Source: a virus
Length of the DNA stretch: 64,000 nucleotides
IMG/VR virus record: IMGVR_UViG_3300017917_002765
Coordinates: 62,001-126,000 of that record
Strand: one strand, 5' to 3'
The notes under the pieces were generated by a model, which was not told the DNA's origin, did no database searches, and saw nothing but the letters and a program-made list of their open reading frames with translations. Shown here piece after piece: positions 1 to 241 of the stretch; the stretch's first letter is position 1, and every line of letters begins with the position of its first letter. The translations under genes were made by a program, and so were the position numbers.

Positions 1-241
1 AAAACCGAATGGACTACCATTATGTCGTGGAACATACCACGATGAAGCGATTTATCGCTATCAGCTATATTAGGCTACAGCAAGCTCTCCAGCGAAACTG
101 CAAGCAGCTTCGTCAAGGAAATTTTCAGATACAACAAAATCGTTGCCATTTAAAAAGTTCAATAGCCAGTTTAAAGTGCTTCCATCTAGCACTACATGCT
201 TACTAATTACGACTATATTCAGTCAATACCTTTAATGCCCC
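1..241 (-). ncRNA. ssrA: tmRNA (SsrA), 3' part beyond the window edge
   Basis: Read on the minus strand, the RNA begins GGGGCATTAAAGGTATTGAC at 241. This matches the tmRNA 5' acceptor/D-like consensus (GGGGC, six bases, GG, then TGAC). Next come the conserved TAAGCATG stretch and a PK1-type hairpin (188-193 pairing with 175-180). A 25-codon tag frame opens at a GGC (Gly) resume codon at 145-147; Bacteroidota tags also start with Gly. The frame stops at TAA (70-72), with in-frame TGA and TAG just behind. The tag ends GELAVA, a hydrophobic protease-degron-like tail. Two perfect hairpins follow (46-59, 25-42). The 3' acceptor half and CCA lie outside the window. A typical tmRNA is 350-400 nt, so about a third is missing. 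Role: rescue of stalled ribosomes and tagging for proteolysis; ClpP is encoded nearby. Tag length and ending are unusual. Confidence 0.82.

Follow-up and report, generated by a model that had tools for sequence, protein, structure and literature searches.

We describe a transfer-messenger RNA (tmRNA) gene with an unusually long peptide tag at the left edge of a 64,000-nucleotide stretch of viral DNA (the window), which covers positions 62,001 to 126,000 of the IMG/VR record IMGVR_UViG_3300017917_002765 (G000, a linear record of 136,575 bases; the window is G000:C1:62001-126000). A reading made from the letters of the window alone (the sequence-only reading) had recognized the 5' half of a phage tmRNA on the minus strand at positions 1-241, and expected the 3' acceptor strand and T-arm within 200 nucleotides (nt) to the left. 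When the sequence to the left was joined to the window, ARAGORN returned a complete tmRNA of 357 nt on the minus strand (record 61,885-62,241), and the Rfam model RF00023 matched it over its full length with 75.1 bits (E 3.2e-27, cut-off 47). Window 1-241 holds the first 241 nt of the RNA, and its last 116 nt lie at record 61,885-62,000; because the window edge cuts the gene, neither ARAGORN nor Rfam finds a tmRNA in the window alone. Both expected elements are present. The 5' acceptor strand GGGGCAT (window 235-241, minus strand) pairs at all seven positions with ATGCTCC outside the window (GGGGCAU/AUGCUCC in the RNA), including the G3.U70 pair by which alanyl-tRNA synthetase recognizes its substrates, and the T-arm, AUGGG-UUCGACU-CCCAU, is canonical. 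CCA is not encoded, the gene ending ..CUCCACAC, and a G+C hairpin with T residues behind it lies downstream. Folding of the RNA is better than that of shuffled sequences (z -3.7), and a stem AGTGC/GCACT resembling that of pseudoknot 1 is visible in the tmRNA alignment. An edge artefact or a chance tmRNA half was rejected, as the 3' part is present and covarying.

The tag reading frame (window 73-147, minus strand; coding part at gene positions 95-172 by ARAGORN) has 25 codons, begins at a predicted GGC (Gly) resume codon (window 147-145), encodes GNDFVVSENFLDEAACSFAGELAVA with the end GELAVA, and is closed by a TAA stop (window 70-72), in agreement with the frame first proposed. The promoter of its own that the gene had been credited with is represented by TACCTTTG (window 314-321, minus strand; 73-80 nt upstream of the tmRNA), which we take to be a Bacteroidota -7-like element. 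A clpP gene with the same orientation lies 1,073 nt upstream of the tmRNA, in line with the 1.1 kb noted before; it encodes a protein of 234 amino acids (window 1315-2019, minus strand; Pfam CLP_protease, PF00574, 5.6e-58, 196 bits) that also matches ClpP entries in the PDB. Alignment with a solved ClpP structure shows that the ASMAS, MLH/MIH and DSDRDY positions, presumably those of the Ser-His-Asp triad, are kept; the protein scores below the NCBIfam equivalog cut-offs for cellular ClpP. The space between the two genes holds an open reading frame (ORF) on the plus strand, convergent with clpP, for a GIY-YIG endonuclease-like protein (window 417-1310; Pfam GIY-YIG, 7.6e-6). The record also encodes the tmRNA partner SmpB (PF01668; G000:8169-8594, minus strand; 182 bits, and above cut-off for NCBIfam TIGR00086).

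Conservation of the tmRNA and of its position behind clpP

Relatives were collected by two independent routes. A search with the window's ClpP yielded 24 viral contigs, and a tmRNA above the Rfam cut-off is present in 23 of these 25 records (G000 included), the other two records being fragments, one of 11.6 kb and one of 7.9 kb. The second search made no use of ClpP: a DNA pattern for the tag end gave 42 stretches, of which 23 were new and 19 lay in records already collected. RF00023 matches 20 of the new stretches, 19 of them above cut-off. Of the others, G034 has a tmRNA that RF00023 missed and that was recognized by eye, with a degenerate T-loop and an intact tag and acceptor (L082, minus strand), reflecting either a sequencing error or a decaying gene. 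The pattern matches in G035 and G045 were rejected, both being the same chance coding sequence. The total set comprises 44 tmRNAs, from records that are related and in many cases nearly identical; the annotated phage collection held no direct DNA relatives of note.

All seven acceptor pairs form in each of the 44 tmRNAs, and positions 5-7 show compensatory changes and more than one type of pair. G3.U70 is found in 43 (G036, as paired by script, has a G.U at pair 2), as is a discriminator A, and the T-stem is fully paired (5/5) in all 41 that were scored, three not being scored, through 14 different stems. These covariations indicate that the phage RNA is under selection as a tmRNA. The promoter-like sequence TAnnTTTG occurs within 130 nt upstream in 34/44, and in most close relatives the element stands at -73 to -82. 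We also noted, in a 735-kb phage, a weak full-length RF00023 match (LR756501.1:718388-718731, minus strand; 21 bits), perhaps a divergent tmRNA.

Among the 41 records with both genes, 39 have the tmRNA 3' of clpP on the same strand with a gap of 52-1,834 nt, and 18 of the 41 had been found by the tag pattern and not by ClpP. The arrangement is absent from G023 and G024, whose tags are the most divergent. Three pattern-found tmRNAs have no ClpP; each lies 100-514 nt from the end of its contig, the end towards which clpP would be expected. Judged by this arrangement, the link between clpP and the tmRNA is one of conserved synteny and not a chance neighbourhood. The gap is about 118 nt in close relatives versus one filled by the GIY-YIG ORF in G000, and that ORF is probably a mobile insertion. 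A phage dnaJ gene also lies near clpP (window 3017-4003, minus strand).

The tag is long and conserved at the amino acid level

The 44 tmRNAs encode 26 distinct tags, which excludes a one-off decayed frame. Their lengths are 25 codons in 40 cases, 26 in two, and 28 and 34 in one each. The resume codon is preceded by A at -4 in 44/44 and never by A at -5, and the stop is TAA throughout. The -4 residue occupies the same position as E. coli A86; changes of A86 and U85A are harmful, U85C and U85G harmless (PMC2481249), a pattern with which the phage sequences agree. Because the longer frame has this A in every case, the starts giving tags of 9-20 residues that ARAGORN chose in ten records (G010-G012, G014, G017, G018 and G021-G024) were rejected. 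Tags for which ARAGORN gave no frame or another start were read by eye (the Lak phages, LR756504, G058-G067, G079 and G080).

The consensus is [DG]N-D-[FL]-[IV]-V-SENFL-[DN]-E-A-x-x-S-F-A-GE-[LV]-AVA. The tags end in LAVA (28), VAVA (11), MAVA (2), VAFA (2) or LEIA (1), so that the last residue is Ala in 44/44 and the end is A-[VF]-A in 43/44. The tag is evidently under purifying selection, in its own frame only: across the 27 distinct 25-codon frames the ratio of nonsynonymous to synonymous differences (pN/pS) is 0.40 in the tag frame, while the two alternative frames give 1.09 and 1.04, as pairwise values uncorrected for the tree and with one shifted-register tag included, which raises pN. 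On these comparisons, the long tag is a trait of the whole phage family.

The conservation extends well inside the peptide, and a non-degradative role might be imagined, in which the tag would mark or inhibit host proteins, or signal to a phage factor through its SENFL core, clpP lying nearby as one of a set of general proteostasis genes. The centre, SENFLxEA, is indeed nearly as conserved as the end, which exceeds what a signal for an unfoldase alone would need. The invariant Ala and the nearly invariant A-[VF]-A, however, are typical of C-terminal degrons, and a search of six ORF sets for phage proteins with tag-like ends gave no matches, so that no phage ORF there shares the tag end; we regard this explanation as quite improbable.

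RNA-level constraint is also evident. The codons GAAAATTTCCTT and GGAGAG are nearly invariant even at silent sites, and therefore selection on the RNA acts as well. The RF00023 alignment places within the G000 tag the helix that normally follows the tag, which suggests, without proving it, that the tag grew by read-through of this helix. A strongly conserved RNA fold inside the tag was rejected, the consensus fold being weakly better than column shuffles (14/200 shuffles were as good).

These features bear on a further alternative, that the tmRNA performs ordinary ribosome rescue, that its tag is still read by host ClpXP or by several host proteases, and that the extra length is tolerated and weakly selected for RNA folding. 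It would accommodate the helix GCUGC/GUAGC in the tag region, kept in nearly all of 25 sequences, as well as the report that rescue in E. coli is little affected by changes in the tag template (PMC2481249), and the phage tags share with ssrA tags an end of hydrophobic residues and a final Ala. It does not account for selection at the amino acid level over the whole tag, and the tags of presumptive hosts, considered next, also speak against it.

Comparison with Bacteroidota tags

By record title, the ten cellular contigs whose ClpP is closest (46-48% identity) all belong to Bacteroidota, and nine of the ten genomes have an RF00023 match above cut-off. Eight of the nine tmRNAs were resolved by ARAGORN, and all eight encode tags of 9 amino acids ending in ALAA or AMAA, bearing out the statement in the sequence-only reading that the usual tags are about nine residues long and end in ALAA. 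The commonest tag length in the tmRNA database is 10 (PMC11915505). The phage RNA resembles bacterial one-piece tmRNA (RF00023) in its acceptor, G3.U70 pair, T-arm, A at -4, tag frame and stop, and that of Bacteroidota in its promoter and in the tag N-terminus, where [GD][NE] recalls the host DNTSYALAA. It differs from the host form in having a tag of 25 amino acids and not 9, nearly three times the length, an end [LVM]AVA where the host has A[LM]AA, a clpP gene adjoining it, and a stop that comes after the stem that Rfam aligns with the post-tag helix. This changed end, set against resolved host tags that all keep A[LM]AA, argues against a tag simply left to host ClpXP.

The unfoldase encoded with the long tag

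SmpB and Clp ATPases were sought in 26 records, the longer ones of 48 viral records. SmpB is encoded in five (G000, G002, G009, G023 and G024) and a Clp ATPase in three, G009, G023 and G024, which are the three largest. These unfoldases are of the ClpC type, with two AAA modules and, by Pfam, a UVR motif in G009 and G024. G009 carries the same tag as G000, together with SmpB, ClpP and a ClpC with Clp_N and the UVR motif. A search of the 136,575-base record of G000 found no ClpC, and this record is probably a fragment.

Viral contigs were also searched with three query proteins, two phage ClpCs and a Lak phage ClpX, which returned 162 loci, and 29 large records among them (28 ClpC, one ClpX) were scanned for tmRNA at E 1e-12. 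Ten contain a tmRNA, all of them ClpC records, with tags of 21-26 amino acids; each has a single Clp ATPase, of the ClpC type, and no ClpX. Five of the ten were read completely, and all five encode ClpP, SmpB and ClpC and none ClpX; in three of them the tmRNA lies 107-139 nt behind clpP, which is not the case in G064 and G079. Together with G009, G023 and G024, a ClpC-type unfoldase without ClpX is thus found in 13/13 long-tag records, and tmRNA, SmpB, ClpP and ClpC occur together in all eight large relatives checked for every partner. All 13 unfoldases have a loop of the type [MVLI]G[FYL], through which such unfoldases dock to ClpP, and a UVR-like stretch is present in six of nine further ClpC ORFs. 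ClpX was not found in G000 or in the long-tag records searched, and an SmpB query against the viral contigs gave no usable match. LR745206 and LR756502 have ClpP, SmpB and ClpC and no tmRNA above cut-off; a motif scan near their clpP genes did not find one either.

Like these phages, the Lak phages (MK250029, MK250020) are huge Bacteroidota phages with tmRNA, SmpB and ClpP, but Lak-B1 and Lak-C1 have tags of 10 amino acids, DDEI[DE]FRMAA, encode ClpX and not ClpC, and have the tmRNA far from clpP. Phage G has a 13-residue tag and ClpX. Long phage tags may exist elsewhere, mycobacteriophage Bxz1 reportedly having one of 25 amino acids. The contrast between the long tags of 13/13 ClpC-only phages and the short tags, ending in MAA, of the ClpX-bearing Lak phages adds to the case against reading by host ClpXP with tolerated extra length, which we consider unlikely overall.

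Lon is the other protease to be weighed. The ssrA tag of Mesoplasma florum is longer than that of E. coli, to which it is orthogonal, ends in NYAFA and is read by mf-Lon (PMC3439342, PMC9382460), and the phage tag is like it in combining greater length with an altered end, linked there to a protease switch. By analogy with the 27-residue Mollicutes ssrA tag, the long phage tag could send proteins to host Lon; the lengths are similar and two phage tags end in VAFA. The end NYAFA is, however, absent from all 44 phage tags, which do not conform to the Mollicutes type of Lon-directed tag, and the M. florum system uses Lon in a group without active ClpXP, whereas in the phages clpP is coupled to the tmRNA, ClpC is co-encoded, and Lon was not found in any of the 21 phage records searched. 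Delivery to host Lon is accordingly very unlikely in our view.

Two of the unfoldase genes are interrupted. The ClpC gene of G009, a 362-kb phage, consists of two ORFs (L190:4264-7333 and L163:643-2304) that break at the Walker A motif of the second AAA module (GPTGVGK|C...); one has an intein-like N part and the other a C part, and a further ORF stands between the two, an arrangement resembling that of a split intein whose endonuclease is free-standing. The ClpX of Lak-C1 (MK250029; L188:1189-3258) has an intein-like insertion just after Walker B that is absent in Lak-B1.

Other genes of the record and its relatives

A 477-residue protein with DUF2828 and DUF7788 is encoded at window 5774-7207 (minus strand), which we take to be a vWA/TROVE-like architecture; its product is possibly an RNA-binding Ro-like protein. 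ARAGORN finds 29 tRNA genes on the G000 record, all on the minus strand (L007, L005 and L004). Between the tmRNA and a tRNA-Met gene, a second TACCTTTG promoter-like element precedes an RNA-like stretch with no Rfam match (L004:6240-6390, minus strand). Several relatives (L016, L018, L019, L021 and L023), but not G000, have a tRNA with a CTA anticodon, called tRNA-Pyl by ARAGORN and possibly an amber suppressor and sign of TAG recoding.

Discussion

The best account of these observations is that a family of large, Bacteroidota-infecting phages encodes much of a tag-and-degrade pathway, in which a functional one-piece tmRNA carries a tag re-tuned from ClpX to phage ClpC:ClpP; we put the probability of this at about 0.55. 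Ribosomes stalled during infection would be rescued by the phage tmRNA, once expressed, with phage SmpB; alanine would be loaded through the G3.U70 acceptor; and the ribosome would resume at GGC (or GAC) and add a 25-residue tag ending in [LVM]-A-V-A where the host tag ends in A-[LM]-A-A. The most likely purpose would be for the tag to be read by the phage ClpC-type unfoldase and its substrate passed to phage ClpP instead of host ClpXP. We think that phage ClpC:ClpP is the reader because the phages bring ClpC and ClpP and neither ClpX nor Lon, and by analogy with M. florum. The sequence-only reading had suggested that the tag may steer proteins to a different protease; the conserved tag, the clpP synteny, SmpB and the ClpC-type unfoldase without ClpX or Lon back this idea, and the steering itself is what we infer from them.

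Several observations weigh against this account. LR756504, whose tag of 24 residues ends in AVAA, encodes a ClpX-like protein alongside ClpC. Of the 13 large records, ten were chosen for having ClpC, so that in those ten the presence of ClpC, though not the absence of ClpX, is by construction. Nineteen of the 29 large records found through ClpC or ClpX have no tmRNA at E 1e-12, and ClpC must therefore have other jobs. Given the relatedness of the records, many of which are almost the same, the association of tag and unfoldase represents few independent events. The tmRNA does not adjoin clpP in G023, G024, G064 and G079, and host ClpX could accept a tag ending in AVA.

A stronger form of the proposal, which we hold tentatively and at a little short of even odds, is that the pathway is orthogonal to the host: the tag would be a long, lineage-specific degron read only by phage ClpC:ClpP, with tag and unfoldase co-evolving across huge phages (ClpX with short ..MAA tags, ClpC with tags of 21-34 residues). 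Unfinished proteins would therefore be routed to a viral protease during infection. The benefit could lie in clearing proteins made from messages cut in infection, in shielding tagged proteins from host proteases, or in the recycling of amino acids, as has been proposed for another phage tmRNA (PMC9004378).

The kind of element is known, since huge phages with tmRNA and SmpB were reported earlier (PMC7162821). Phage tmRNAs have been described in mycobacteriophages and Bacillus phage G (PMC4131195), in 402 of 18,146 phage genomes (PMC9004378) and as 79 unique sequences (PMC11915505), and the present ones resemble them in being phage-borne and sometimes accompanied by SmpB. The available parts of these articles (PMC4131195, PMC7162821, PMC9004378, PMC11915505) do not describe tag conservation, a clpP-tmRNA pair or a matching unfoldase, and in a search of open-access PMC full text neither a phage clpP-tmRNA pair nor this tag was found described. 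Phage tmRNA with SmpB is thus established, and what we did not find in print is the conserved long tag, its pairing with clpP and the link to ClpC.

A tag that is unlike that of the host in both length and end, that a whole phage family has conserved, whose gene is paired with that of a phage protease, and that is co-encoded with SmpB and an unfoldase offers a testable answer to the question of why phages carry tmRNA. If the proposal is correct, these phages would replace ribosome rescue and, beyond it, determine what becomes of the tagged protein, and their tag would be a natural orthogonal degron with its own protease.
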